Source of the DNA: Deltaproteobacteria bacterium
Lineage (GTDB): Bacteria; Myxococcota_A; UBA796; GCA-2862545
Reading direction: 5' to 3'
Length of the DNA stretch: 64,000 nt
Assembly: GCA_006226595.1 (NCBI GenBank)
Contig: SBGP01000069.1
Span: 62,001-126,000 of the forward strand
Shown here piece after piece: positions 16,501 through 62,082 of the stretch. Position numbers and translations under genes: made by a program. A model generated the notes under the pieces. That model did not search any database. It saw nothing but the letters and a program-made list of their open reading frames with translations, and was not told where the DNA came from. Positions within the stretch are counted from its first letter, which is position 1; each line of letters starts with the position of its first letter.

Positions 16501-19330
16501 CGAGGAGCCGGTGAGCTGGGACCGCCCGAAGGCTGGCGTGTTCGAGGTCACCGCGGACAAGGGCCTGTACGAGCCCGGCGACGAGGCGACACTGCTCGTG
16601 CAGAGCCCCTACCAGAGCGCCCGCGCGCTGATCATCGTCGAGACGCCGACGGGCAACCGCTACGAGTGGGTGAACGTGAAGGGCGGAAAGGCCCGGTTCA
16701 AGCTCCCCATCGAGACCGGCTGGGTGCCGCGCCTGCCCGTGCACACCGTGCTGTACCGCGGTCGCAAGGACAACGCGCCGCGCACGGGCAACATGGACCT
16801 CGGCAAGCCGGTGACCGTGGCGAACACGACCTGGCTCAAGGTCGCGCCCGTCGAGAACCAGATCGACGTGCGCGTCGAGCTTCCCGACCAGGCCCTGCCC
16901 GGCGAGGAAGTGCCCGTCACCGTGCGCCTCGCCGACCCACGCGGCAACCCGCTCTCCGGCGAGGTCACCCTGTGGCTGGTCGACCGCGCCGTGCTCGCCC
17001 TCGGCGAGGAGCAGCGCCTCGACCCCCTCCCCGACTTCATCCGCGACCGCCGCAGCCGCCTGCTCGTCCACGACACCCGCAACCTCACGGTCGGGGCGAT
17101 TCCCTACGCGGAGATGCCCGGCGGTGACGGGGCCGAGTCCGAGGACCGCATGGCCGCGGAGAGCGCGCTCGATGCCGCCACCGTGCGACGCAACTTCCAG
17201 CCCGTGCCCTACTACGAGCCGACGCTGAAGGTCGGGGCGAGCGGCAAGGTCACCGTGAACGTGAAGTTGCCCGACAACCTCACCGTGTTCGCAGTGCGCG
17301 CCAAGGCGATCAGCGGGCCCGAGCGCTTCGGCGTGGGCACGGCGGACATCCGCGTGCGCCTGCCGCTCGTCGCGCAGCCCGCCCTGCCCCGCTTCGTGCG
17401 CGCCGGCGACGCCTTCGTCGCCACGGCCATCGGCCGCGTGGTCGAGGGACCCGGCGGGGCCGGAAGTGCGGAGATCCGCGCCGAGGGCCTCGACGTTCAG
17501 GGCGAGCCCACTCGCGCGGTCTCGTGGAGCACGGTCACCGCCGAGCGCATCGGCTTCGACGTGCGCACGCCAACGCCCGCGTACGGGGAAGATGGGCGCA
17601 TGGAGCGAGAGGACGTGGAGATCGCGATGGGCGTGCGCCGCGACGCCGACGGCGCGGCCGATGCCTTCGCGCTGACCTTGCCCCTGCTCCCGGACCGCGA
17701 GCGCAAGGTCGTGCGCGAGAGCCACGAGCTCACCGCCGGAGAGTCGCTGACCATCGAGGCCCTTCCCGAGCCCGCCCGCGACGGCACCGTGCAGCGCCTG
17801 GTCGTGATCTCCGACGAGCCCGCACTCGTGCGCATGGTCGCCGCCGCCGACTTCCTGCGCCTGGCCCCGGTGGGCTCCGCCGAGCAGCGCATCTCCCGCG
17901 CTCGCGCCTACCTGGCCCTCTCCCGAGCCCGGACCGATGCCGCCCTGCGCGCGTCCCAGGAAGAGCTGGACGCGGTGGTCCGCGACACCCTGGCCTTCCT
18001 GCCCGAGGTCGTCGACGGCGGAAACCGCATCAGCCAGTGGCCCGGCTACTCGGGCTCCGTCGCCCTCACCGCATGGAGCGTGCACTTCCTGATCGAGGCG
18101 CGCGAGGCGGGCTACGCCATCGACGAGGCCCTGCTCTCGCAACTGGCGGGCACGCTGCGGGCGGCCCTGCGCAGCGACTACAGCCACTTCATCGACGGCG
18201 AGAAGTGGATGGAGCGCACGCTGGCGCTCGAGGCGCTCACCGCGACCGGCACCGTCGAGGATGCCTACCTCAGCGAGCTGGCTCGCAACGCGCGCTACCT
18301 CGACCACGAGGCCCTCGCGAGCATCGCGCTCGCCGCGCACCGCGCCGGTCGCAGCGGCCAGGCGGTGGCGACCTCGATGGGCAAGGAGCTCGAGAGCGGC
18401 ATCATCACGCGGCTGTACGAGGGGCGCGAGGTGTACGGCGGACTCACGCAGCGCCTGGACTACCGCAGCCCGCTGATCCTGCCCTCCGAGACCCGCACCC
18501 TCGCGAAGATGGCCCGCGCCATCGGCCGTACCGACGCGGACAGCAAGCGACTCGACCTCGTCATCGACGCGCTGGTCACGCTCGGCCGCGAAGACGGCTG
18601 GGGAAACACCCACGCAAACGCCGCGGCGCTGTTTGCCCTCGCCGAGCGCATCGAGCGCGCCGACGGCCCGGGCGGCTCGGTCGAGATCACGAGCGAGGGC
18701 GACAAGCGCAGCGCGTCGCTGTCCAAGGACGAGCCCGTGCTCGTGCGCAGCTTCACGAGTACCGAGTCCATCGACATCCGCGCGAAGAGCGGCGGGCCGC
18801 TGCTCGTGCTCGTCACCTCGCGCTACGTGCCGGCGGCCCCGGGCGCGGAGGCCGCACCGGAAGCGAGCGGGTTCGTGGTCCACCGCGAGGCGCGTCCGCT
18901 CACCGCACAGGGCACCCTCGGCGATCTCGTCGACCTCGGCGACGGGGGCGTCAAGATCGGGCTGAGCACGGGCGGCATCGTCGAAGAGCACGTGCAGATC
19001 GTCGTCCCCGAGAAGCGACACTACGTCGCGGTCGAGGTGCCCTTCGCCGCGGGCGTGGAGCTGCTCAACCCGGCACTCGCCACCGCCCCGCCCGAGGCGA
19101 GGCCGTCCAAGGGAGACACCGCGCGTCCGGCCTACACCGCGCGCCTCGACGACCGGGTCGTTTACTTCTTCGAGACCCTCGACAAGGGCACCTGGGACTT
19201 CTACGTGCGCACCCGGGCCACCGCCGAGGGCAGCTTCTCGCAGCCGCCGGCGACCGCGCGCATGCTGTACAGCCCGGACATCCGTGGCCAGAGCGCCGGT
19301 GCCCGCATCGACGTGGCGGCGGCCCCGTGA
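13556..19330 (+). CDS. Bacterial alpha-2-macroglobulin-like protein without thioester Cys
   Basis: A 1924-residue periplasmic protein with an N-terminal hydrophobic signal (PRLLLVPLLLLAVVAGATGG). Alpha-2-macroglobulins are large traps that entangle proteases. Landmarks in order: N-terminal MG domains; the MG segment FPERPIYRPGETVYLKAFL near residue 640; the A2M segment VTVNVKLPDNLTVFAVRAKA near 1230; and an alpha-helical thioester-type domain from ~1420 (TSGSVALTAWSVHFL-like helices, GWGNTHANAAALFAL at ~1680). The thioester motif, normally CxEQ, reads GSAEQRISRARAYLAL with Ser1441 (codon TCC) in place of Cys. This form resembles the thioester-less bacterial subtype (YfaS-like) rather than the covalent one. 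Coupled by 4-base overlaps to the genes on both sides, including pbpC, the classical partner, which would repair wall breaches that let proteases in. Confidence 0.92.
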   Translation: MTRRPLPRLLLVPLLLLAVVAGATGGNELLDAMLSRPAAARGIVVVPDRFVRAWDPITVFFPSNTGKPGPEDTPERFVRMAPDQPGAWTWLDAQTLQFRPAEPWPPLQTVTVSTDGEIAELATLMSPPSASEPRNGASNLDRVESIGLTFPHPVPVEALARMITLDVTELSGQGVVTLDADDFEIKAMDRPSADAPARYALTLDRAIELGKRVTLRFGLALGDKGDAVSTLSFSTAEPFRATAVGCPSRTWPVTAEGTRYSADQPLSCRGKAELLVQFSASPGELDPVQARNLVRLDPAVPGLDIVKQGAGLAIRGEFDRDTLYEVTLTPALIEDHRGRALDIRGESTLYVRFEPQSAYLSWSQAGIVEAKGPKRIGLQGRGHGRVDLRIVPVEADNRNFWPLHTPIALDEEQRPAGPGEEPEPWTSPENAGRHDVSARIATLPITGWSRIVDLPLDPDGNAASFGLDVESALTELSGKQKPGHYLVGVRTLDGSTSRAWHRIQVTDLALSTIESADRTRFVVTSLSTAAPVSGATVYLEGSRRKHGETTREWAVLSTHVTGPDGTVDYTAPGSNDASWRLLRIRVVKGDDQLVLDPSQPPEHFADNLWRSSGEGWMQWMYGGLSHRGESSELLGHAFPERPIYRPGETVYLKAFLRERFQGHLKPLGGEATVVVRAPNGKETRIQTTLSAMGAVDATFVPEEDGPTGHYSVQVFRKGGGNAWTNFLVEAYRLPTFEVDLHGDGTVPLDKPFDVRMTATYYAGGRVAERPVRWRVTQYPYAWNPDPIEGFVYSTDSRFASQSRFRASPDVVRSVLTDAAGESVIDLDPSLEPTAQPRTYVVEATVTGADDQTVTSTTRVHAVPAFALGLKAPRVVEKAKRFSAEVVAVGPDGKPIADQELTVRLVQRQWHSHLQASDFTEGSARYVTDVVDETLETRTLTSGAAPESLSFDVPAAGVYLVEVEAQDALGRGQLVTVDLFVAGEEPVSWDRPKAGVFEVTADKGLYEPGDEATLLVQSPYQSARALIIVETPTGNRYEWVNVKGGKARFKLPIETGWVPRLPVHTVLYRGRKDNAPRTGNMDLGKPVTVANTTWLKVAPVENQIDVRVELPDQALPGEEVPVTVRLADPRGNPLSGEVTLWLVDRAVLALGEEQRLDPLPDFIRDRRSRLLVHDTRNLTVGAIPYAEMPGGDGAESEDRMAAESALDAATVRRNFQPVPYYEPTLKVGASGKVTVNVKLPDNLTVFAVRAKAISGPERFGVGTADIRVRLPLVAQPALPRFVRAGDAFVATAIGRVVEGPGGAGSAEIRAEGLDVQGEPTRAVSWSTVTAERIGFDVRTPTPAYGEDGRMEREDVEIAMGVRRDADGAADAFALTLPLLPDRERKVVRESHELTAGESLTIEALPEPARDGTVQRLVVISDEPALVRMVAAADFLRLAPVGSAEQRISRARAYLALSRARTDAALRASQEELDAVVRDTLAFLPEVVDGGNRISQWPGYSGSVALTAWSVHFLIEAREAGYAIDEALLSQLAGTLRAALRSDYSHFIDGEKWMERTLALEALTATGTVEDAYLSELARNARYLDHEALASIALAAHRAGRSGQAVATSMGKELESGIITRLYEGREVYGGLTQRLDYRSPLILPSETRTLAKMARAIGRTDADSKRLDLVIDALVTLGREDGWGNTHANAAALFALAERIERADGPGGSVEITSEGDKRSASLSKDEPVLVRSFTSTESIDIRAKSGGPLLVLVTSRYVPAAPGAEAAPEASGFVVHREARPLTAQGTLGDLVDLGDGGVKIGLSTGGIVEEHVQIVVPEKRHYVAVEVPFAAGVELLNPALATAPPEARPSKGDTARPAYTARLDDRVVYFFETLDKGTWDFYVRTRATAEGSFSQPPATARMLYSPDIRGQSAGARIDVAAAP

Positions 19331-21660
19331 TCCGCCGGGCGCTTGGACTCGCGAGCCTCGCGGGGAGCCTGGTGCTCCTCGGGCTGCTCGCGCGCGCGTG
19401 GAGCCTCTCCGCGCTGACCGAGCCCGTGCCCACCCTGCTGCTCCTCGATCGGCACGGGGCCTTCCTCGGCGAGGTCGGGACCGGCGAGTCCGAGCCGGTG
19501 GGCTTCTGGCCCGCCACCGACGCCCACGGCGCCCTGCCCGAGCGGGTGGTCGCCGCGACGCTGGCCATCGAGGACCGGCGCTTCGGAGAGCACCCCGGGG
19601 TCGATCCGGTCGCCGTCGCCCGCGCGGTCGGCCAGAACCTCGGCTCCGGCGAGCGCGTGTCCGGGGCCTCCACCATTGCCATGCAGCTTGCGCGGCTGCA
19701 GGATCCGGGTCCGCGCACCTGGCCGAAGAAGCTCGTCGAGGCGACGACCGCTCTCGTGCTCGTCGACCGCCACGGCGACGAGGCCGTGCTCGCGCAGTAC
19801 CTCAAGCTCGCGCCCTACGGAAACAACCTCCACGGCGTGGCCTACGCGGCCCGACGCTACTTCGACAAACCCCTGGACGACCTGTCGTGGGCGGAGAGCG
19901 CGTACCTGGCTGCCCTGCCGCAGGCACCGGGGCTCATGAACCCGTACGACCGCGACGGTCGCGACCGCGGTGTGGCACGCGCCCGCCGCATCCTCGACCT
20001 GCTCGCCGCCGACGGTCAGCTGGCTGCCGAGGACCGCGCCCGCGCCGACGTCGAGCTCGATGCGCTCGTGTTCCACCACCGTCCCGAGCGCCCCGCCTCG
20101 ACACTACACGCGGTGATGCGCCTCGAGGAGCGACTGCGGTCCGCCGACGAGCGTCACCGCTACGCCCAGGACCCGCGCGTCTTCACCACCCTCGACCTGC
20201 AGCTGCAGACCGAACTCCAGGCCCGGCTGCGGGAACAGATCCGCGCGTGGGAGGCCCGAGGTGCCGGCAACGCGGCGCTCATGGTGGTCGAGCTCGACAC
20301 CGGAGCCGTGCGCGCGGCGGTGGGCTCCACCGACTACTTCGACGAGCGCTTCTCGGGCTCGATGGACTTCACCCGTACGCCGCGCAGCCCGGGCTCGACC
20401 CTCAAGCCCTTCCTTTACGCGGAGGCGCTGGAGCGCGGTCTCATCGACCCGGTGCGGCCGATCGACGATCTGCAGCGAGGCCCGGACGGCATCGGCAACG
20501 CCGACAGCGACTTCCTCGGCCCGCTGCTCCCGCGCCAGGCGCTCGCGAACTCGCGGAACGTGCCGGCGGTCGAGATCCTGCGCCGCATCGGCCTCGATCA
20601 GGGCTACGGCCTGTACCGCGACCTGGGCCTGCACGAGGGCGAGCACGACGGCGCCCACTACGGCTTCTCGCTCGCGCTCGGCGGTATGCCGACGACGCTG
20701 ACCCAGCTCGTCCAGGCGAGCACCGGACTCGCCACCGACGGCGTTGCTCGGCGCCTGGTGTGGACCGACCGCGAGCCCCACGAGGTCGTCGGCAAGCGCT
20801 TCGACGAGGCCACCGCCCGCCGCGTGAGCAGCTGGCTCTCCGACCCGATGGCCCGCCTGCCGACCTTCCCGCGCATGGGACACAGCGAGCTGCCATTCCC
20901 CGCGGCGATCAAGACCGGCACCTCTCCGGACTTCCGCGATGCGTGGGCCATCGCGTGGACCGAGGAATACGCCGTCGGCGTGTGGGTCGGACACCCGGAC
21001 TGGCGCCCGATGCAGCAGCTCTCTGGCTACCGGGCTGGGGCGAGCCTCGTGCACGACGTGCTGCGCACGCTGCATCCCGTCGAGTCCGAGGGCCTCTCCG
21101 ACGTGGGGCGGCTCGGACCCGAGGGCGAGCGGCTGGTCCGCGTGTGTCCCCTCTCCGGCGGCAGGGCGACCGCCGCCTGCCCGGGACAGACGCAGGAGTG
21201 GCAGCCGGTCGAGCCAGAGCCATGCCCCTGGCACGTGCTCGCTGACGTGGACGTGCGCACGGGCGGCCTGGCCACCGAGTCAACGCCCCCCGGGGCGCGC
21301 CGTACGCGTGGACTCGCCGACCTCCCCGCGCGCTACGCGGCGTGGGCCGAGCGCGAGGGCGTCGAGACACTGCCCCGCGCCTGGGTCGACGACACGCCGC
21401 AGGTCGAGGTCCTGAGCCCCCGAGACGGCGACCACCTGCTCCGCGATCCAGAGGCGCCGGACGGCGCGGGCACCGTGCTGCTCGCCGCCGCCGTGGACCC
21501 GCCCGGAAGCCAGGTCGTGTGGTACGTCGACGGCGAGCCGTGGAAGGTCGTCGACGCCCCGTACACGGCCCGCTGGCCCCTCGAGCCCGGCGAGCACGTA
21601 CTCGAGGCGCGGCTGCCCTTCGACGCCCGCGGCGCGAAGGTACGCATCACCGCGCGCTGA
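19327..21660 (+). CDS. pbpC: Penicillin-binding protein 1C
   Basis: A complete 777-residue bifunctional peptidoglycan synthase. The GTG start at 19327 overlaps the macroglobulin stop (GTGA). Residues ~8-28 are the signal anchor. The GT51 glycosyltransferase has IEDRRFGEHPGVD (catalytic Glu82) and ASTIAMQLARL (~114-123). The transpeptidase has STLK with Ser357, SRN at 409-411 and KTG at 529-531. The ~100 C-terminal residues are a BiPBP_C-like beta domain (VEVLSPRDGDHLL to the end). It polymerises glycan and cross-links peptide at the inner-membrane surface. Pairing with an alpha-2-macroglobulin is the well-known bacterial arrangement. The convergent membrane-protein gene begins directly after the stop. 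Confidence 0.95.
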   Translation: MIRRALGLASLAGSLVLLGLLARAWSLSALTEPVPTLLLLDRHGAFLGEVGTGESEPVGFWPATDAHGALPERVVAATLAIEDRRFGEHPGVDPVAVARAVGQNLGSGERVSGASTIAMQLARLQDPGPRTWPKKLVEATTALVLVDRHGDEAVLAQYLKLAPYGNNLHGVAYAARRYFDKPLDDLSWAESAYLAALPQAPGLMNPYDRDGRDRGVARARRILDLLAADGQLAAEDRARADVELDALVFHHRPERPASTLHAVMRLEERLRSADERHRYAQDPRVFTTLDLQLQTELQARLREQIRAWEARGAGNAALMVVELDTGAVRAAVGSTDYFDERFSGSMDFTRTPRSPGSTLKPFLYAEALERGLIDPVRPIDDLQRGPDGIGNADSDFLGPLLPRQALANSRNVPAVEILRRIGLDQGYGLYRDLGLHEGEHDGAHYGFSLALGGMPTTLTQLVQASTGLATDGVARRLVWTDREPHEVVGKRFDEATARRVSSWLSDPMARLPTFPRMGHSELPFPAAIKTGTSPDFRDAWAIAWTEEYAVGVWVGHPDWRPMQQLSGYRAGASLVHDVLRTLHPVESEGLSDVGRLGPEGERLVRVCPLSGGRATAACPGQTQEWQPVEPEPCPWHVLADVDVRTGGLATESTPPGARRTRGLADLPARYAAWAEREGVETLPRAWVDDTPQVEVLSPRDGDHLLRDPEAPDGAGTVLLAAAVDPPGSQVVWYVDGEPWKVVDAPYTARWPLEPGEHVLEARLPFDARGAKVRITAR

Positions 21661-22734
21661 TCACCAGGTGCCGCTGAGCAACCGCACGTCGGCGCCCGCG
21701 AGTCCGTCGCGGTCGATGCGCGGCGACACCGTGGGCATGTGCACGACCACGCTGCTACGGTCGCCCTCGAGCCGCGCGAGGGTCGCGCCGTCGTAGTCCC
21801 GAGTCAGGTAGGTGCCCAGGCCCAGGCCGACCGCGGACAGGCCACCGACCACCGAGAAGCCAACCTGCGGCGACACCTCGGAGCCCAACGCGAACAGCGC
21901 GAGGCCGAGACCGCCGGTCAGCGCGCCGGCGTAGCCCGAGAGGTTGATCAGGTTCATGCGGCGGCGGCTGATGTCCACCTGGAACGCGGTGACGCCCATG
22001 GCGAGCATGCCGATGCCGGCACCCGCGGCGATGTTCGGCACCGCGCGCCCCTGGGTCAGCAGCAGGGTCAGCGCTCCATAGCCCGCACCCCAGGACAGGC
22101 CGCTGCGCACCATGCTCGCGTCGCCGGAGTTCGGCGGCAGCACGATGGCGCCGACGGCACCGCCGACCATGCCGGTCGCGAAGCCGCCAGCGAGGATGAG
22201 CAGGTTGTCGCGCGGCTCGGAGGGACGCAGGACCTCGAGGGCCACGGCCGCACCGAGGGTTCCCGCGAGCTCGCCCGTGTACACAGTCATCGCCTGTCCT
22301 TCGGTGATGCCGTAGCGGCTGCCGATCAGCAGCGGAGCACCGATGCCGACCCCGAGACCAAGTAGACCTCCGGTGAGCGGGGCCGCCGCGCTGCCGGGGC
22401 TCACCGCACCGCCGAGGGTGCCGAAGAACACGGGCCCGAGCAGCGCCTGGGACACCACGAGCTCGACGGTCCCGTCCTCCTGGGAGCCGGACACGCCGTC
22501 GGCGCAGACCTTGGCGACCATCGACGTGGTCTGGCGGAGATCCGCTGCCTTGCCGGCGTACTCGGTGGTCGCGAAGCTCGACTCCACCTCGCGGAGCACC
22601 TCGCAGGCTTCGCCGTACTGGCGGGCGTCCACGAGGTCGAGGGCTACCCGGTAGCGGGCCGCCGCCTCGGCGGTCTGTTCGTCGAGTGCAGCGGGGTCGT
22701 GCGCCATCGCGAGCGCCGTGAGCAATACCAGCAT
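21661..22734 (-). CDS. Polytopic membrane protein with N-terminal exported helical region
   Basis: A 357-residue protein. ATG 22734 was chosen because GGAGGAACC precedes it; an earlier in-frame start at 22782 lacks a site. The N terminus looks like a cleavable signal (MLVLLTALAMAHD). About 75 helical, charged residues follow (RYRVALDLVDARQYGEACEVL resembles a TPR helix pair). The rest is Gly/Ala-rich with roughly eight hydrophobic segments in regular alternation, as in small repeated transmembrane hairpins. The C-terminal ~45 residues are polar. No family recognised. It is convergent with pbpC and divergent from the HMG-CoA synthase gene. Confidence 0.7.
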   Translation of the reverse strand: MLVLLTALAMAHDPAALDEQTAEAAARYRVALDLVDARQYGEACEVLREVESSFATTEYAGKAADLRQTTSMVAKVCADGVSGSQEDGTVELVVSQALLGPVFFGTLGGAVSPGSAAAPLTGGLLGLGVGIGAPLLIGSRYGITEGQAMTVYTGELAGTLGAAVALEVLRPSEPRDNLLILAGGFATGMVGGAVGAIVLPPNSGDASMVRSGLSWGAGYGALTLLLTQGRAVPNIAAGAGIGMLAMGVTAFQVDISRRRMNLINLSGYAGALTGGLGLALFALGSEVSPQVGFSVVGGLSAVGLGLGTYLTRDYDGATLARLEGDRSSVVVHMPTVSPRIDRDGLAGADVRLLSGTW

Positions 22735-22837
22735 GGTTCCTCCAGGGCCCCCCTTTTGCCGTGGTGGCGAGCCGTCCGCCACTATCGGTCACTGCGTGTC
22801 ACCACGGTATCCACGAGTTCTGCACACGAGTACACTA

Positions 22838-22855
22838 TGAATGAACCATCATTCA
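22838..22855. promoter_or_regulatory. FadR/TetR-like palindrome before HMG-CoA synthase gene
   Basis: Perfect inverted repeat TGAATGA-ACCA-TCATTCA located 27 bases before the chosen GTG start of the HMG-CoA synthase gene. Its arms are identical to those of the Bacillus FadR (TetR-family, acyl-CoA responsive) consensus, TGAATGA-N4-TCATTCA. It is A+T-rich against the local background. Likely an operator for an acyl-CoA-sensing TetR repressor encoded elsewhere. Confidence 0.65.
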
Positions 22856-22881
22856 CGACATCCCCTCCCGGGAGGAAGCCA

Positions 22882-24333
22882 GTGACCGTGGGCATCGACG
22901 ACATCGCGCTGCACATTCCCCGTCTGTACCTGGACATCGAGGACTTTGCCGAGCTTCGCCGACTTCCGGCTGCCAAGCTCCAGCGGGGGCTCGGGCTGCA
23001 GGCGATGTCCCTCCCCGACGTCCACGAGGACCCGGCGACCATGGGCGCGAACGCCGCGGCCCGACTCATCGAACGCAGCGGACTGGATCCGCGCCGCATC
23101 GGGCGGATCTACCTCGGCACCGAGAGCGCGCTGGACGGTGCCAAGCCGACGGCGACGTACATCCTCGAGATGCTCACCGAGCGCTTCGCCCCGGCCTGGG
23201 GCGAGGACTGCTTCCTGCACTGCGACGTGGTCGACCTCACCTTCGCCTGCATCGGAGCGGTCGATGCGCTGCACAACACCCTCGACTGGGTGCGCGGCGG
23301 CGAGGATCGCATCGGTATCGCGGTGTTCGCGGACCACGCTCGCTATGAGCGCCACTCCCCCGGCGAGTACACCCAGGGGGCTGGCGGCGGCGCCCTGCTC
23401 GTCAAGCACGACCCGCGACTGCTCGTCATCGACGACGCGTGGGGCGTGTGCACGACCCCGGTCCACGACTTCTTCAAGCCCCGCCGGCGCATGCCCGCCC
23501 GCGAGCTGTTCGAGCAGGTCCTCGACCTCGCTCGGCAGGCCGGCGCCGAGCTGCCGCACGACCTCGCCGCGCGCATGGAGGCGGCCCTGCCCGACTCGCC
23601 GCTCGCCGAGTCCCTGTTCCACGAGGACGCGGGCGCGCTGACGCTGCACCGCGACAGCCCGACCTTCGACGGCCCGTTCTCGAACGAGTGCTACGTGCGT
23701 GCCCTGTCGAATGCGCTCGCGAACTTCCGCGCCCAGCTGGACGAGACCCGGCGCGGCACACCGCTCACCGAGCAGTGGGCGCGCATCGCCGTGCACCTGC
23801 CCTACGCACGACAGGGCCACCGCATGTTCCCTGAGCTGTGGGCCGAGGAGCGACGCGAGGACCCGGCCTTCGCCGAGCTGTTCGCCTCGCTTCCCGAGGA
23901 CGACTGGCGGCGCGCGGTCGCCAAGACCGACGACTACCTGGCCTTCGCCGAGACCCGCCTCGACCGCGGCCTGCTCGCGTCGAGCCAGGTGGGCAACCAG
24001 TACACGGGCTCCGTGTTCCTGGCGCTGTTGTCGACCCTCGCCGCCGATCTGGCCGAAGGCAACGAGCTGAGCGGTGAGCGCATCGGCTTGTGCGCGTACG
24101 GCAGCGGCGCGAAGGCCAAGGTCTTCGAAGCGGTGGTCCAGGAGGGTTGGCGCGACGTGCTCGCCGCCGAGGACCTGTTCCCGCGCCTGGCGGAGCGCGT
24201 TCGCGTGAGCGCCGATCGCTACGAGCAGCTGCACCGCGGCAGCCTCGACGCGAGCGTGCGGGAGCCCGCCGGCGAGTTCGTGCTCGATGCGGTCGGCGAG
24301 GACGGCGCGCGGCGCTACCGCTGGGTGGCGTGA
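22882..24333 (+). CDS. mvaS: Hydroxymethylglutaryl-CoA synthase
   Basis: A 483-residue enzyme condensing acetyl-CoA and acetoacetyl-CoA to HMG-CoA. The GTG start at 22882 follows GGGAGGAAGCCA and gives VTVGIDDIALHIPRLYLD, the standard family N terminus. An in-frame ATG at 22837 lies at the edge of the operator and has no ribosome site. Catalytic residues are in place: Glu81 in LGTESALDGAKP, Cys123 in DLTFACIGAVDAL, and His195 in PVHDFFKP. The central part contains an insertion with a long helical segment (ELFEQVLDLARQAGAEL). In myxobacteria MvaS also serves the alternative isovaleryl-CoA route controlled by a TetR regulator; whether that holds here is unknown. No other mevalonate gene is nearby. 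Confidence 0.92.
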   Translation: MTVGIDDIALHIPRLYLDIEDFAELRRLPAAKLQRGLGLQAMSLPDVHEDPATMGANAAARLIERSGLDPRRIGRIYLGTESALDGAKPTATYILEMLTERFAPAWGEDCFLHCDVVDLTFACIGAVDALHNTLDWVRGGEDRIGIAVFADHARYERHSPGEYTQGAGGGALLVKHDPRLLVIDDAWGVCTTPVHDFFKPRRRMPARELFEQVLDLARQAGAELPHDLAARMEAALPDSPLAESLFHEDAGALTLHRDSPTFDGPFSNECYVRALSNALANFRAQLDETRRGTPLTEQWARIAVHLPYARQGHRMFPELWAEERREDPAFAELFASLPEDDWRRAVAKTDDYLAFAETRLDRGLLASSQVGNQYTGSVFLALLSTLAADLAEGNELSGERIGLCAYGSGAKAKVFEAVVQEGWRDVLAAEDLFPRLAERVRVSADRYEQLHRGSLDASVREPAGEFVLDAVGEDGARRYRWVA

Positions 24334-24343
24334 GCCCCCGCGG

Positions 24344-25273
24344 CTAGCGGGCCCCGAAGGTCTCGATCAGGAAGTCTTCCTGGGCGTTGTAGTTGTCGTC
24401 GATGCCCTTGCGGGTAGTGCCGGCGACGACCTCGTCGCTCACGTTGAGCCCGTCGAACTCGGTCTCGGACCACAGGGCCAGCGTGCGCAGCGTGCCGCCG
24501 CCCGTCGAGTCCGCGGTCCACTCGCCGCCATCGGCGTTCTGCTCGGTGCCGTCGCGGACGAAGCCGTTGCCGTCACGAGGGATCCACACCTCGACGGTGA
24601 ACGACTGGTGGATGTACGCGTTCTCGGACTCGCCGGTGAACGTGTCCGTCGTCCAGCTGCGGGCGATGATGCCCCACCGCGGCTCGCCGTCGTTCACGGC
24701 CTCCTCGCCCTCGGGAACGTCTTCGGGGTCCGGCAGGTTGAGGTCCACCCAGCGGAAGTCCTTGTAGAACCAGTACGGCACCGTCATCAGGAGGTTGTCC
24801 TTGATGAGGTCGTTGTGGGTCTCCATGCGCGGGCAGGTCTGGCTGTCGAAGCAGTCCCCGCCGAGCAGGAAGGTGCGGACGTAGTAGTTGGGCGAATAGG
24901 GCTCGACCGGCGTCTGGTCCTCGTTCATCTGGATCGAGGCGTGCTCGAACGGCTCGTAGGCCGACACCGTGGCGACGGCGACGGGAATCGCGTCCGTGAG
25001 CGACCGATCCGGGCGCTCGATGTCGAACACGTCGTCCTCGACGAGCACCGACGGCGTGAGTGCGCGGTCCTGGTTGCGATCCGCGGTCACGTCCATGCTC
25101 AGGTACACCTGCTGCTCGAGCTGACGCATGGCGAACGCCAGATCGACCTCCTCGCCGTTGAAGCTGCGGAACGTGTACGACAGGGCGTCGTCGAAGCTGG
25201 GGTTCGCCGGCGGCGGGGCCCGCCGACAGGCGGTCGTACCGAGGGCGAGAAGGACGAGGAGCGCAGCACGCAT
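24344..25273 (-). CDS. Predicted lipoprotein, function unknown
   Basis: A 309-residue protein. ATG 25273 is the start that leaves a lipoprotein leader at the N terminus (MRAALLVLLALGTTAC, Cys16), with GGAG seven bases upstream. The mature part is acidic and rich in aromatic residues (SPNYYVRTFLLGGDCFDSQ, PYWFYKDFRWVDLNLPDPED), with one likely disulfide (DCFDSQTC). The middle and C-terminal regions look like beta strands (IHQSFTVEVWIPRDGNG). No known domain recognised. Convergent with mvaS, 10 bases from its stop. Confidence 0.72.
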   Translation of the reverse strand: MRAALLVLLALGTTACRRAPPPANPSFDDALSYTFRSFNGEEVDLAFAMRQLEQQVYLSMDVTADRNQDRALTPSVLVEDDVFDIERPDRSLTDAIPVAVATVSAYEPFEHASIQMNEDQTPVEPYSPNYYVRTFLLGGDCFDSQTCPRMETHNDLIKDNLLMTVPYWFYKDFRWVDLNLPDPEDVPEGEEAVNDGEPRWGIIARSWTTDTFTGESENAYIHQSFTVEVWIPRDGNGFVRDGTEQNADGGEWTADSTGGGTLRTLALWSETEFDGLNVSDEVVAGTTRKGIDDNYNAQEDFLIETFGAR

Positions 25274-25362
25274 TCGAGATCTCCGTTCGGCGCAAGATAG
25301 CGCACGCCCGTAACGGATCGCGAATACAAAGGACAAATGCCGTGTTCGTTCGCCCGGCCAGG

Positions 25363-26814
25363 CTAGTCGAGCGGCTCCGGCGGCAAGGACATCGGCATCG
25401 GCGGAAGGCTGCGACGCGCCACCGGCGGCACGGTCAGCGGCTCCGGCGGAAGCACGAGCACGAAGGTCGCTCCCCCTCCGGGCGTCGGCGTGTAGCGAAT
25501 CGTTCCGCCGAAGTCGCCGACGATCACGTCGTGCGCGTTGGACAGTCCCATGCCCGCGCCGCGGCCGCGCCGGGTGGTGACCATCGGCTGGAACAGCTCG
25601 GCGGCGACCTCGGCGGGCACGCCGATCCCATGGTCGACGATGGTGATCTCGACGCCGTGCTCGTTGAGCTGCAGGCGCACGTCGATGGGCGCGTGGGAGC
25701 CCGCGGCCTCGACGCTCTCGACCGCGTTCTCGAGCAGGTTGCGCATCACCGCCGAGAACTTCGCAGCCTCGCCGGTCACCGTGAGGCCTCGTCCGCCGCC
25801 GACGCGTACCTCGATCTCGGCGTCGACCAGCCGGTAGCCGAGCGACCCGACCACGACCTCGATCTCGTTGGCGACATCGAAGGGGGCGATGGACGTGGAC
25901 TCGAGCTGACGGGCGCCACCCGCGAGACCCTCGACGTAGCGGGAGGTGCGCTGCACCGCGAAGGCCGCGTCCTCGAGCGCCTCACGAAGCTCTTCGAAGC
26001 CCTGGACCTCGGAGCTCTCGAGCAGATCGCGCGCCCCGTCGACCCTCGCGCGGACCTCGGCGAGCGGTTCCTCGATGCCCTGGGCGATGCGCCCGGTCAC
26101 ACGACCTACCGTGGCCTTGCGCTGGAGCACCGCGACCTGGGCCTGGGCCTCACCGAGATCGAGCATGGCCGCCTCGAGGGCCGAGGCCTTGTCCGCGAAG
26201 CCCTGCTCGGCGTGAAACAGGTCCCACAGCGTCTGACGTCGCTGGCGACACGAGAGTGCGCCGCCGACGGCGAGTGCGAGCATCATCGCCGTGACCATGG
26301 CGCGGAAACGGCCGTCGGCGACGATGGTATCGGTGAGCCAGAACGGCCAGGGCAGGATGGCGAGGACCCAGCCGAGCACGAGAAAGCGCACCGCGGGCAA
26401 CGGCACGAACATGCCGAGTCCCAGATAGAAGAACGCCGGGGCCATGCTGAACGGGTGGTTCGCTCCCCCGTCGAACGCGACCTCGGTGAGCGGAACCATC
26501 GACACGAGCAGCGTGCCGACGGTCGCGGTGATCGCCCCTTCGACCTGGGCGTCGTCCGGGCGGGTCACCCACAGCATCAGCGCGAGGAAGACCATCACCG
26601 TGCCGCGCACCGCCCCATTGAGCAGGGCGAGGTCCGGCCGGAGCGCCAAGGTGAGCGGCGTGAACAGGAGCAGCGTCGTGAACGCCACCACCAGGTACAT
26701 GCGCGTACCGCCGAGCTCGGCGAACGCGAGGCGCTGCTCCGGCGACAGGCCCGCGGGCTCCGTGCCCCACACCCAGTCGCTAAGCCGGTCGAGCCAGGGG
26801 CTTCCGGCGATCAA
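25363..26814 (-). CDS. Histidine-kinase-like membrane sensor lacking the phospho-acceptor His
   Basis: A 483-residue protein. Start TTG 26814 overlaps the upstream stop (TTGA), with GGAGG seven bases before. About six transmembrane segments (residues ~37-205) form the sensor, then a coiled helix leads to a dimerisation-like helix. Where HisKA kinases have AHExxNPL, this reads GRVTGRIAQGIEEPLAEVR: the His is Gln245. The ATPase domain is intact: N box NLLENAVESV, G1 DHGIGVP, G2 GAGMGLSNAH. It may bind ATP but cannot autophosphorylate at the usual place. It could be a pseudokinase or an allosteric partner for another kinase. The C-terminal ~30 residues are Pro-rich. Third gene of a coupled unit starting at 27679; no response regulator lies beside it. 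Confidence 0.85.
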   Translation of the reverse strand: MIAGSPWLDRLSDWVWGTEPAGLSPEQRLAFAELGGTRMYLVVAFTTLLLFTPLTLALRPDLALLNGAVRGTVMVFLALMLWVTRPDDAQVEGAITATVGTLLVSMVPLTEVAFDGGANHPFSMAPAFFYLGLGMFVPLPAVRFLVLGWVLAILPWPFWLTDTIVADGRFRAMVTAMMLALAVGGALSCRQRRQTLWDLFHAEQGFADKASALEAAMLDLGEAQAQVAVLQRKATVGRVTGRIAQGIEEPLAEVRARVDGARDLLESSEVQGFEELREALEDAAFAVQRTSRYVEGLAGGARQLESTSIAPFDVANEIEVVVGSLGYRLVDAEIEVRVGGGRGLTVTGEAAKFSAVMRNLLENAVESVEAAGSHAPIDVRLQLNEHGVEITIVDHGIGVPAEVAAELFQPMVTTRRGRGAGMGLSNAHDVIVGDFGGTIRYTPTPGGGATFVLVLPPEPLTVPPVARRSLPPMPMSLPPEPLD

Positions 26815-27317
26815 CGAGCGTCCTCCGGCTCCTCGACCACCTCGATGCCGAGCTGGGCCTGCACCGCGCGGTCGTGCCGCTCGACCCACGCCTGCACCTC
26901 GGTGGCGCCGTAGTGCGTGTCCACCCGCTCGACCCGAGCGTCGCGTCGTAGCAACAGGTGCGCGCCGAGCCCGTACAGGCCCACGCCACCGATCACGGCG
27001 ACCCCTCCCGCGCGGGCCGTCGAGGGACTGCCGTCGACGAGCGCGAGGCTGCCGGCCCCGATGGCCGCGGCCGACGCCGCCATCGTGCCGAGCACCAGCG
27101 AATGCTTGCGGCGACGCGCGTGCTGAAGACGCGTGAGTCCGGCCGAGTCACCGACCAGGCCTGCGAACTGCTCGGCGGTCAGGGCCTCTCCGCCGCGCAC
27201 CACCTCGTACCCGCTGATCACCTGCCGCAGCTCCAGCGTGTGCGCCTCGAACAGCGCCTCCGGGCTGGGCTCCGCGGGTTCCTCCGCGAAGGCGGTGAGC
27301 AGCAAGGCCACGATCAC
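26811..27317 (-). CDS. Small exported or membrane-anchored hypothetical protein
   Basis: A 168-residue protein with a short cleavable signal (MIVALLLTAFAEEP), a helical region ~20-70, two hydrophobic glycine/alanine-rich segments at ~74-94 and ~101-123 that likely form a membrane hairpin, and a charged C-terminal tail. Its ATG overlaps the zinc-ribbon gene's stop (ATGA) and its stop overlaps the kinase-like gene's start (TTGA), so the three are translationally coupled. It may be an accessory subunit of the kinase-like sensor; this is inference from gene order. No family recognised. Confidence 0.7.
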   Translation of the reverse strand: MIVALLLTAFAEEPAEPSPEALFEAHTLELRQVISGYEVVRGGEALTAEQFAGLVGDSAGLTRLQHARRRKHSLVLGTMAASAAAIGAGSLALVDGSPSTARAGGVAVIGGVGLYGLGAHLLLRRDARVERVDTHYGATEVQAWVERHDRAVQAQLGIEVVEEPEDAR

Positions 27318-27679
27318 TTCTTCTTCCTCAGGGAGCGCAGGGCGTCCATCGCCGACCCGCCGCCCTCGTCCGCGGCCTCGCCGGTACGAGCCGGGAGCTG
27401 GCGACCGTCGGAGGGGGGCGCGTGGCGCGGCGCGGCGCGTGCCGGACCGCGTGACGCCGTGCTCGCCCCGCCGCGAGCCGGCCCACCAGGCACGAGATCG
27501 TCGATGGTGACCTGCGGTGCGTCCTCTTCCGCGAACGCGTCACGAAGGCCGAAGAGGTCCTTCATCGCGATGTGACCGCCACATCGGGGGCAGCGCACGG
27601 TGCCCTGGATGGCGACGAGGGACTCGGGATCGAGCTGCGCGCGGCAGCTCGTGCACTTGACGTGGTCGAAGTAGGACAT
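27314..27679 (-). CDS. Zinc-ribbon protein
   Basis: A 121-residue protein starting at ATG 27679. Two CxxC knuckles (Cys9/Cys12 and Cys30/Cys33) in VKCTSCRAQLDPESL and VRCPRCGGHIAM form a zinc ribbon of the kind found at the N terminus of MJ0042-type proteins. The rest is low complexity, rich in Gly, Ala, Pro and Arg, ending in a basic tail (RSLRKKK). It is soluble with no signal peptide. First gene of the coupled unit leading to the kinase-like sensor. It could be a nucleic-acid or protein-binding adaptor. Confidence 0.75.
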   Translation of the reverse strand: MSYFDHVKCTSCRAQLDPESLVAIQGTVRCPRCGGHIAMKDLFGLRDAFAEEDAPQVTIDDLVPGGPARGGASTASRGPARAAPRHAPPSDGRQLPARTGEAADEGGGSAMDALRSLRKKK

Positions 27680-27767
27680 GTCTGGAGCATACACGGACCA
27701 CGGAGTCACGGCATCTTTGCTTGCTCCCGCGCCTCGTTCGGCCAAATTGGGCGGCCCTGGAGACCAC

Positions 27768-28325
27768 ATGCGCCTGCTTCCCATCCTCGTCGCTCTCGCC
27801 GCCTGCAACCCGCCCGTCGATGGCGATGAGAACAGCGAGACCGGTGACACCGACACCGCCGTGTTCACGCTGACCCTGCCCTGGGACGACGGCGCGGCGA
27901 TCCCGACCGAGTACACCTGCGGCGCGGGTGGCGTGAACTGGACCACCCAGCCGAACCCGCTCGTGTCCTGGTCCGGCGCACCGGACGGCACCGCGGCGTT
28001 CGCGATGATCTACGTCGACAGCGACCTCTCCGACTGGGAGCACTGGGCGTTCTACACGGCGGACGCGACCGTGACCTCGATCCCCGCGACCACGTCGAAC
28101 ACGGCCTCGCTGCCGGCCGGCGTCACCGAGCTCGTCAGCCAGGATGGCCGCACCGGGTACGTGCCGAACTGCCCGTCGAGCACGCACACCTACACGTGGA
28201 CCCTGTACGCGGTCAGCGATGCGAGCGCGCTCACCGGCCAGACGAGCTTCGACGGCCTGCGCAGCGCTGCCGAGAGCGTGTCGCTCGGCAGCCTCACCTA
28301 CACGGGCACTGCTTCGCCGCAGTAG
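27768..28325 (+). CDS. PEBP-family (YbhB/YbcL-like) lipoprotein
   Basis: A 185-residue protein. ATG 27768 gives a lipoprotein leader (MRLLPILVALAAC, Cys13) and then a short acidic Asp/Thr/Glu linker. The mature domain matches the phosphatidylethanolamine-binding / Raf-kinase-inhibitor fold: IPTEYTCGAGGVN (normally the IPxxYTCDG motif), NPLVSWSGAPDGTAAFAMI and WEHWAFYTADATVTSIPA with the ligand-pocket His. Bacterial members are small, often periplasmic, and of poorly known function. Here the His-rich ligand pocket is only partly kept. ATG follows CTGGAGACCAC. Convergent with the 28329 gene. Confidence 0.82.
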   Translation: MRLLPILVALAACNPPVDGDENSETGDTDTAVFTLTLPWDDGAAIPTEYTCGAGGVNWTTQPNPLVSWSGAPDGTAAFAMIYVDSDLSDWEHWAFYTADATVTSIPATTSNTASLPAGVTELVSQDGRTGYVPNCPSSTHTYTWTLYAVSDASALTGQTSFDGLRSAAESVSLGSLTYTGTASPQ

Positions 28326-28328
28326 GCG

Positions 28329-28742
28329 CTACGCGCGCTGGCTCCGCCAGATCAGAAAGGCACCGAGCGCGAGCACCGGATCGAGGATGGCCACGGGCAG
28401 CACCATGCCCAGCGCCACCTTGTCGAGCAGGTACAGTGACCCGAACATGAAGGGCACCAGCGCGCGGTCGACGACGGTCGCGAGGGCGAAGCTCGTCGCG
28501 CCGGTTCGCCCCCCCATCACGTAGAACCAGCCGACGATCACGAGCACGAAGCCCATCATCCGCGCCCAGCCTTCCTCGTGGCCGTGAAACCCGTCGAGCA
28601 TCAGTCCGAACGCGAGCCACTGGGCCGGCACGACGACGAAGAGCACGCCGATGACCATGTACAGCACGCCGTTGGCGACGGTGTAGCGGGACAGCGGAGA
28701 CAGCGGTGGGGCCGCGGTGAGATCCTCGACGAAACCGGACAT
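28329..28742 (-). CDS. Small four-helix membrane protein
   Basis: A 137-residue protein with four predicted transmembrane segments (VLYMVIGVLFVVVPAQWLAF, MMGFVLVIVGWFYVMGG, a shorter third near FALATVVDRALVPFMFGS, and MVLPVAILDPVLALGAFLIW). The N-terminal ~20 residues are soluble. Layout resembles small DoxX-like or DUF4345-like proteins but no defining motif was found. It may be transcribed with nothing else, as it is separated by 48 bases from the upstream esterase gene on the same strand. Confidence 0.65.
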   Translation of the reverse strand: MSGFVEDLTAAPPLSPLSRYTVANGVLYMVIGVLFVVVPAQWLAFGLMLDGFHGHEEGWARMMGFVLVIVGWFYVMGGRTGATSFALATVVDRALVPFMFGSLYLLDKVALGMVLPVAILDPVLALGAFLIWRSQRA

Positions 28743-60996: not shown

Positions 60997-62082
60997 ATGC
61001 GTGTGCTCACTGTTGCCCGACACGAGCGCGTCGCCCTCGTGCGCTCCGGCGCGCTTCGGCGTGTGCTCGAGCCCGGCCGCCACTGGGTCTTCGACCCCCT
61101 GTGGCTCACCGAGGCCATCCACTACGACGTGCGCGAGCTCGTCCAGCCCCTCACCGAGGCCGAGCCCTGGCTCCTGCCCGGCACCCGCCTGCTCACCGTC
61201 GAGCCCCACCAGGTCGCGACGGTGGCGGTCGACGGTCTGGTGCGGCGCGTGCTCGAGCCCGGCCGCTACCGGCTGTGGGAGGCGATCGAGGGCGTGTCCA
61301 TCCGCTGGCACGACACCCGCGAAGCTCCCGCTGCGCTGGTCGACAGCGACCGGCTCCAGCCCGTTCGCGGCGAGTGGACCGAGCACGTCGCGTCCAAGGT
61401 CCAGGCCCTGATCCTGTTCCACGACGGCCAGCCCGTGCGAACCCTCGCGCCCGGTCGCTACCGGGTGTGGCGCGGCTCGCCCTGGGCGGTGGTCGCGGTG
61501 CCCCTCGGACTGTCGCCCGTGGAGCTGGCGGTGCAGGACCTCGTCACCGCCGACCGCGTACCGGTTCGCGTTCGCGCCTCGGCGGCGATCCGGGTCACCG
61601 ACGCGCTGGTCCGCGCCGGCGAGACCCGGGCCACGGACCACGTGTACGGCGCCGTCCAGCTCGGACTGCGCGAGGTCGTCGCCGAGCGCACGCTCGAGCA
61701 GCTCGTCTCGGATCGGGATGCGCTGTCGGACGCGCTGCTCGCGCGCACCCGGGTGCACCTGCCCGAGGTCGGCGTCGGCGTCGAGGCCGCGTTCGTGAAG
61801 GACGTCATCCTCTCTGCCGAGGTCAAGGACCTGGTCGGTCGCGTCACCCTGGCGCGCATGGAAGCCGAGGCCCACGGCATTCGCCGTCGGGAGGAGGTCG
61901 CCGCCACCCGCCAGCTCGCCAACACCGCGAAGCTGCTCGAGAAGAGCCCCATCCTTCTTCGTCTGAAGGAGCTCGAAGCGCTCGGCGAGCTCGCCCAGCG
62001 TATCGACAAGCTGGTGGTCGTCGGCGGAAGCGACCTCGCTCAGCAGCTGCTCACCCGGCGTCTCGCGGATGAGCTCGACTGA
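60997..62082 (+). CDS. SPFH/slipin-like protein with three N-terminal beta repeats
   Basis: A 361-residue protein. The SPFH/stomatin part covers ~165-315 (VELAVQDLVTADRVPVRVRA, LREVVAERTLEQLVSDRD, GVGVEAAFVKDVIL) and ends in a helical coiled-coil region (RRREEVAATRQLANTAKLLE). There is no N-terminal hydrophobic hairpin, unlike typical slipins. Instead the N-terminal ~160 residues contain three copies of an LEPGRY unit: RVLEPGRHWVFDP (22-34), RVLEPGRYRLWEA (83-95) and RTLAPGRYRVWRG (148-160). The protein may be cytoplasmic or peripherally bound. ATG 60997 follows CGGAAGGTGAATC. A hairpin terminator follows. Confidence 0.85.
   Translation: MRVLTVARHERVALVRSGALRRVLEPGRHWVFDPLWLTEAIHYDVRELVQPLTEAEPWLLPGTRLLTVEPHQVATVAVDGLVRRVLEPGRYRLWEAIEGVSIRWHDTREAPAALVDSDRLQPVRGEWTEHVASKVQALILFHDGQPVRTLAPGRYRVWRGSPWAVVAVPLGLSPVELAVQDLVTADRVPVRVRASAAIRVTDALVRAGETRATDHVYGAVQLGLREVVAERTLEQLVSDRDALSDALLARTRVHLPEVGVGVEAAFVKDVILSAEVKDLVGRVTLARMEAEAHGIRRREEVAATRQLANTAKLLEKSPILLRLKELEALGELAQRIDKLVVVGGSDLAQQLLTRRLADELD

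Follow-up and report, generated by a model that had tools for sequence, protein, structure and literature searches.

A putative membrane-anchored pseudo-histidine kinase that has lost its phospho-acceptor histidine and shares a gene unit with a zinc-ribbon protein

In a literature search limited to open-licence texts, the cases of relevance were DivL, RocA, ChrS and NifL. NifL (Azotobacter vinelandii) is described as having no kinase activity and as regulating NifA via protein contact, and ADP on its GHKL domain strengthens the NifL-NifA complex (PMC8063818 and PMC9866876). The pseudokinase CA domain of DivL (Caulobacter crescentus) can bind ATP poorly (PMC4211667). RocA (group A Streptococcus) tunes CovS and DivL tunes CckA, both being pseudokinases that act on another kinase; for ChrS, heterodimer formation between a frameshifted form and HrrS has been a subject of study.

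The gene described here lies in a 64,000-nucleotide stretch of a deltaproteobacterial genome assembly (positions 62,001 to 126,000 of contig SBGP01000069.1), referred to below as the window; its features are collected in Table 1. The minus-strand translation around the H box of the window protein reads VGRVTGRIAQGIEEPLAEV. Only one close homolog was found, a protein of the same genus with 67% identity to the window protein (hereafter the sister), and full-length copies were seen in just two genomes of the collections searched, both of this one genus. The mechanical open reading frame (ORF) begins further upstream, with a GTG at 26889. The TTG at 26814 was taken as the likelier start because in the alignment it falls on the sister's initial ATG and because it shares bases with the stop codon of the gene upstream, and with this start the numbering of Gln245 is correct.

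Table 1. Features of the pseudokinase gene and its neighbours, in window coordinates
Feature	Position	Strand	Basis
C4 zinc-ribbon protein (CTSC...CPRC), first gene of unit	27314..27679	-	ORF; sub-threshold zinc-ribbon Pfam matches
Small membrane protein, 168 aa, two hydrophobic stretches	26811..27317	-	ORF; GTG start overlaps zinc-ribbon stop, stop overlaps pseudokinase start
Pseudo-histidine kinase, 483 aa	25363..26814	-	ORF; TTG start overlaps upstream stop (TTGA); HATPase_c match; ortholog
N-terminal membrane domain, about residues 1-200, about 5-6 hydrophobic stretches	26215..26814	-	hydropathy scan
H-box helix (DHp alpha 1, residues 229-262); Q245, G246 and E249 replace H, E/D and N/T/S	26029..26130	-	alignment; dN/dS 0.10
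Gln245 codon CAG at phospho-acceptor position (sister: GAA = Glu)	26080..26082	-	translation, alignment
CA (HATPase_c) domain with N, G1, F and G2 boxes, about residues 315-458	25441..25872	-	Pfam, alignment, model
Putative lipoprotein, downstream here and in sister	24344..25273	-	ORF

In order to place the acceptor site, the window protein and its sister were aligned using MAFFT with 28 distant histidine kinases (HKs) of the same order (L003-L030), which are every locus beyond the two orthologs from the full-protein search, the many further matches listed without a locus being left out. The acceptor column holds His in 28/28 distant HKs, Gln in the window protein (as the first-pass annotation had read it) and Glu in the sister. 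HisKA kinases have E/D at the +1 position as acid/base and N/T/S at +4. The distant HKs carry E/D at +1 in 27 of the 28 (His in the remaining one) and N, T or S at +4 in all 28, and both orthologs have Gly and Glu at these positions. No His occurs anywhere in residues 202-373 of the window protein; His218 of the sister precedes the H box and is absent from the window protein, leaving no DHp His common to both. A shifted acceptor His within the DHp domain is therefore unlikely. The motif register VGRVTGRIAxGIxEPL is identical in the two orthologs, and in Pfam scans the window protein gave no HisKA (PF00512) match up to E 0.1, where another HK scanned gave 7.2e-14. Judged from the sequence, autophosphorylation of the window protein at the usual place is almost certainly impossible. 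The first-pass annotation had further named fixation of Gln across a clade as the sign of a functional pseudokinase, and such fixation did not hold: with Gln in one genome and Glu in the other (n = 2), the common feature is the loss of His.

Long antisense frames lie opposite the pseudokinase in both genomes (window 25342-26913 on the plus strand; L002:1495-3183 on the minus strand). They are probably a by-product of high-GC coding, and may add constraint to the pseudokinase codons. That the window frame covers the gene could point to a wrong frame, an assembly error or a misaligned H box as the source of the missing His. We regard this as extremely improbable, given an independent ortholog that shares frame and register yet uses another codon at this position, and given that profile and fold searches both lead to HKs.

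For the window protein, Pfam yields HATPase-type matches only (HATPase_c, E 1.7e-20). The N, G1 and G2 boxes, first described as intact, keep every invariant residue, with variant letters in the F box and in G2: both orthologs have QPMVTT versus the usual EPFFTT and Ala for the usual Thr of G2, which reads GRGAGMGL in the window protein versus GxGTGLGL. Invariant columns over the 30 aligned sequences include N359, N363, D394, G396, G398, G419, G421 and G423 (residue numbers follow the window protein as given), all of which are therefore retained in the window protein. Because of this retention, and notwithstanding the altered F box and G2, ATP binding by the CA domain is plausible. The presence of all invariant CA-box residues even though the catalytic residues of the DHp domain are gone would also suit an active kinase without an acceptor of its own, whose CA domain phosphorylates in trans another DHp domain or a non-His residue. 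However, both orthologs lack the +1 acid/base E/D, the G2 Thr has become Ala and no candidate substrate was found, so that we consider such an activity unlikely.

For the ortholog pair (480 codons), dN was 0.253, dS 0.956 and dN/dS 0.264, values which are rough because they come from two sequences with a dS near 1. Split by part, dN/dS was 0.102 for the H-box helix (34 codons), which is the best conserved part of the pseudokinase, 0.228 for the CA domain and 0.304 for the membrane part. Its neighbours ranged from 0.18 (zinc-ribbon protein) to 0.49 (small membrane protein). Loss of three catalytic DHp positions and variation at the acceptor site (Q/E) are compatible with a former kinase gene decaying under relaxed constraint. 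Against this, the overall ratio falls within the range of the neighbours, both genomes have a 483-aa ORF and the gene overlaps are preserved. Decay was judged very unlikely because dN/dS is about 0.26 (0.10 in the H-box helix).

Homologs of the N-terminal membrane domain were confined to this genus, apart from weak partial matches. One of these, in genome G005, proved on inspection by eye to combine a receiver domain with the canonical His of an HELRTPL box, and is therefore not a close relative; two further weak matches, in the frames read, are not kinases of the pseudokinase type. In the structure model, pLDDT is < 50 at residues 104-165 of the membrane region, and the rest consists of a long helix to residue 266, a second helix at 270-305 and a high-confidence CA domain, which is mostly at pLDDT > 90. 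Compared by fold with the PDB, the model has histidine kinases as its best matches; DivL comes in at ranks 45 and 49.

A close homolog carrying His had been named beforehand as evidence against a pseudokinase. None was found among 58 relatives' genomes searched with the full protein, 63 genomes of the order searched with the N-terminal part or 71 genomes of the class searched with a two-row alignment of the membrane domain, the sister being the one close homolog in these collections; scans of contig collections for the pseudokinase gave nothing beyond it. The reading of the gene as a functional pseudokinase thus stands in part: the protein is conserved and under selection, has no DHp His, keeps an intact-looking nucleotide pocket and has no receiver nearby, whereas fixation of Gln does not hold. 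That the window protein works outside phosphorelay is inferred, and it could still act through the phosphorelay of another kinase.

The coupling of the pseudokinase to a zinc-ribbon protein and a small membrane protein, also proposed at first pass, was borne out. Both genes are upstream, in the order zinc ribbon, small membrane protein, pseudokinase, and each junction is a 4-nt overlap in both genomes (GTGA at the first; TTGA in the window and ATGA in the sister at the second). The zinc ribbon had matches in 13/63 genomes of the order, 12 of which belong to the family of the pseudokinase (12/21 genomes). At 10 other loci of this family, its surroundings held no pseudokinase and no clear homolog of the membrane protein nearby, and the zinc ribbon therefore needs neither. 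In another genus of the same family (genome G015), an HK gene (L072:6519-7799, minus strand) lies directly upstream of the zinc ribbon; it encodes a canonical HHELRTPL and has a HisKA match, and was set aside as coincidence. Matches to the small membrane protein, mostly weak, occurred in 10/63 genomes of the order. The putative lipoprotein belongs to a family without a Pfam name that is present in 52/63 of these genomes, often in multiple copies each. Defence-system models gave no match to the four proteins. The promoter scan found none, and two terminator-like sites were found versus 0.9 expected, neither outcome being informative.

Several features of the surrounding DNA were also recorded. 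Beside the unit, window 27678-28742 compared with L077:5390-6371 has a PEBP-like gene and its small-membrane-protein neighbour swapped in order and orientation with flanks unchanged, which looks like a local inversion relative to the sister. An HMG-CoA-synthase-like protein is encoded at window 22711-24330 (plus strand), and upstream of its gene (17524-21657, plus strand) lies a gene for a long penicillin-binding protein whose domains are transglycosylase, transpeptidase and BiPBP_C.

For the genome that contains the window, the HATPase_c matches listed number 80, of which 79 are proteins other than the pseudokinase. Four of the 79 were set aside by eye as non-HK proteins (two GyrB-like, one MutL-like and one other GHKL protein). 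Among the matches listed, His was present in all 75 remaining HK-type proteins, and the pseudokinase was the only one of 76 without it. For 16 of these 75 proteins the His was picked out visually and confirmed with a string check, and for the other 59 the search pattern had His as a fixed part, so that distance to the CA domain serves as the check on the H box; this distance was 89-119 residues in most HKs, 195 in L104 and 164 in L154. The pseudokinase is the sole HATPase_c match on its 128.6-kb contig. In agreement with the first reading that no response regulator is adjacent, none of the genome's 94 listed receiver matches is on this contig.

These counts bear on the possibility that the window protein is an allosteric partner, which tunes one of the other 75 HKs by forming a heterodimer or docking with it, or by sensing a phosphorylated receiver. 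Its plan is RocA-like and its lost acceptor DivL-like; in addition, the H-box helix is its best conserved part, and the locus is an orphan in a genome rich in HKs and receivers. However, no HK is co-located, and the best other match listed from the same genome has 28% identity over the kinase core only; with no close paralog, nothing suggests that it pairs with a sibling kinase. We treat this allosteric role as a serious possibility, though it is not the reading that we favour.

The closest named relatives of the DHp-CA core in sequence are NtrB-like sensor kinases (ZraS, FixL and AtoS type). Unlike these, the window protein is without the H, E/D and N/T/S, and all 28 aligned relatives of the order have His. 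DivL matches by sequence (4q20, E 2.4e-7) as well as by fold, and is likewise a pseudo-histidine kinase with its acceptor His replaced. In DivL, however, the replacement is a Tyr (Tyr550) versus Gln/Glu here, ATP binding is weak and the partners are CckA and DivK. The input of DivL is PAS-rich. RocA resembles the window protein in its predicted membrane segments, DHp and CA domains, and works as a pseudokinase with a kinase partner. It retains a dispensable His246 and has a CA domain without several kinase residues, whereas the window protein is the reverse, with the acceptor gone and the CA boxes present.

NifL combines an HK-type H domain and a GHKL domain without phosphotransfer with output by contact and a nucleotide effector, of which the counterparts in the window protein would be similar. 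In contrast to the window protein, which has a membrane domain and no His at the acceptor site, NifL carries PAS domains, is encoded alongside NifA and still has a conserved His. On the window protein the NifL profile scored 48.6 bits versus a cut-off of 242.45 and Pfam gave no PAS match; among the neighbours scanned with Pfam (part of the window ORFs), no NifA-type activator was found. NifL may be taken as the nearest precedent for nucleotide-dependent contact logic. The window protein is a likely analogue in working of NifL, DivL or RocA and an established member of none of these.

The window protein has the DHp-CA architecture with the nucleotide-box residues retained, and its two overlapping neighbours are also under purifying selection. 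Because the acceptor His is gone from both the window protein and its only close relative, signalling is probably by partner contact rather than by phosphate transfer. The reading we tentatively prefer is a membrane-anchored, nucleotide-binding pseudo-histidine kinase with NifL-like output via protein contact, likeliest within its own gene unit. The membrane domain would sense something, the DHp coiled coil would still dimerise and the CA domain would still bind ATP/ADP, as a conformational cofactor; the output would be direct contact with the zinc-ribbon protein and/or the small membrane protein as likeliest partner. Counting against it are the availability of two sequences only, the altered G2 and F boxes, the occurrence of the zinc ribbon alone elsewhere and the putative nature of the partner contact. 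Between an operon partner, which we lean towards with reserve, and a kinase partner, to which we give a lesser chance, no firm choice is made.

Pseudo-histidine kinases are already known; new here is the combination of membrane input, loss of the whole DHp triad, retained CA boxes and a unit with a zinc-ribbon protein. A more specific form of the operon-partner reading, which we hold to be somewhat doubtful, is a nucleotide-responsive membrane receptor that has lost the DHp triad, kept the CA pocket and signals through the co-encoded zinc-ribbon protein, that is, phosphate-free signalling within one unit. Few pseudo-histidine kinases are known, most of them bound to one pathway, and with its candidate partners encoded right beside it the window system would be a compact test of what the HK fold does without phosphate transfer.
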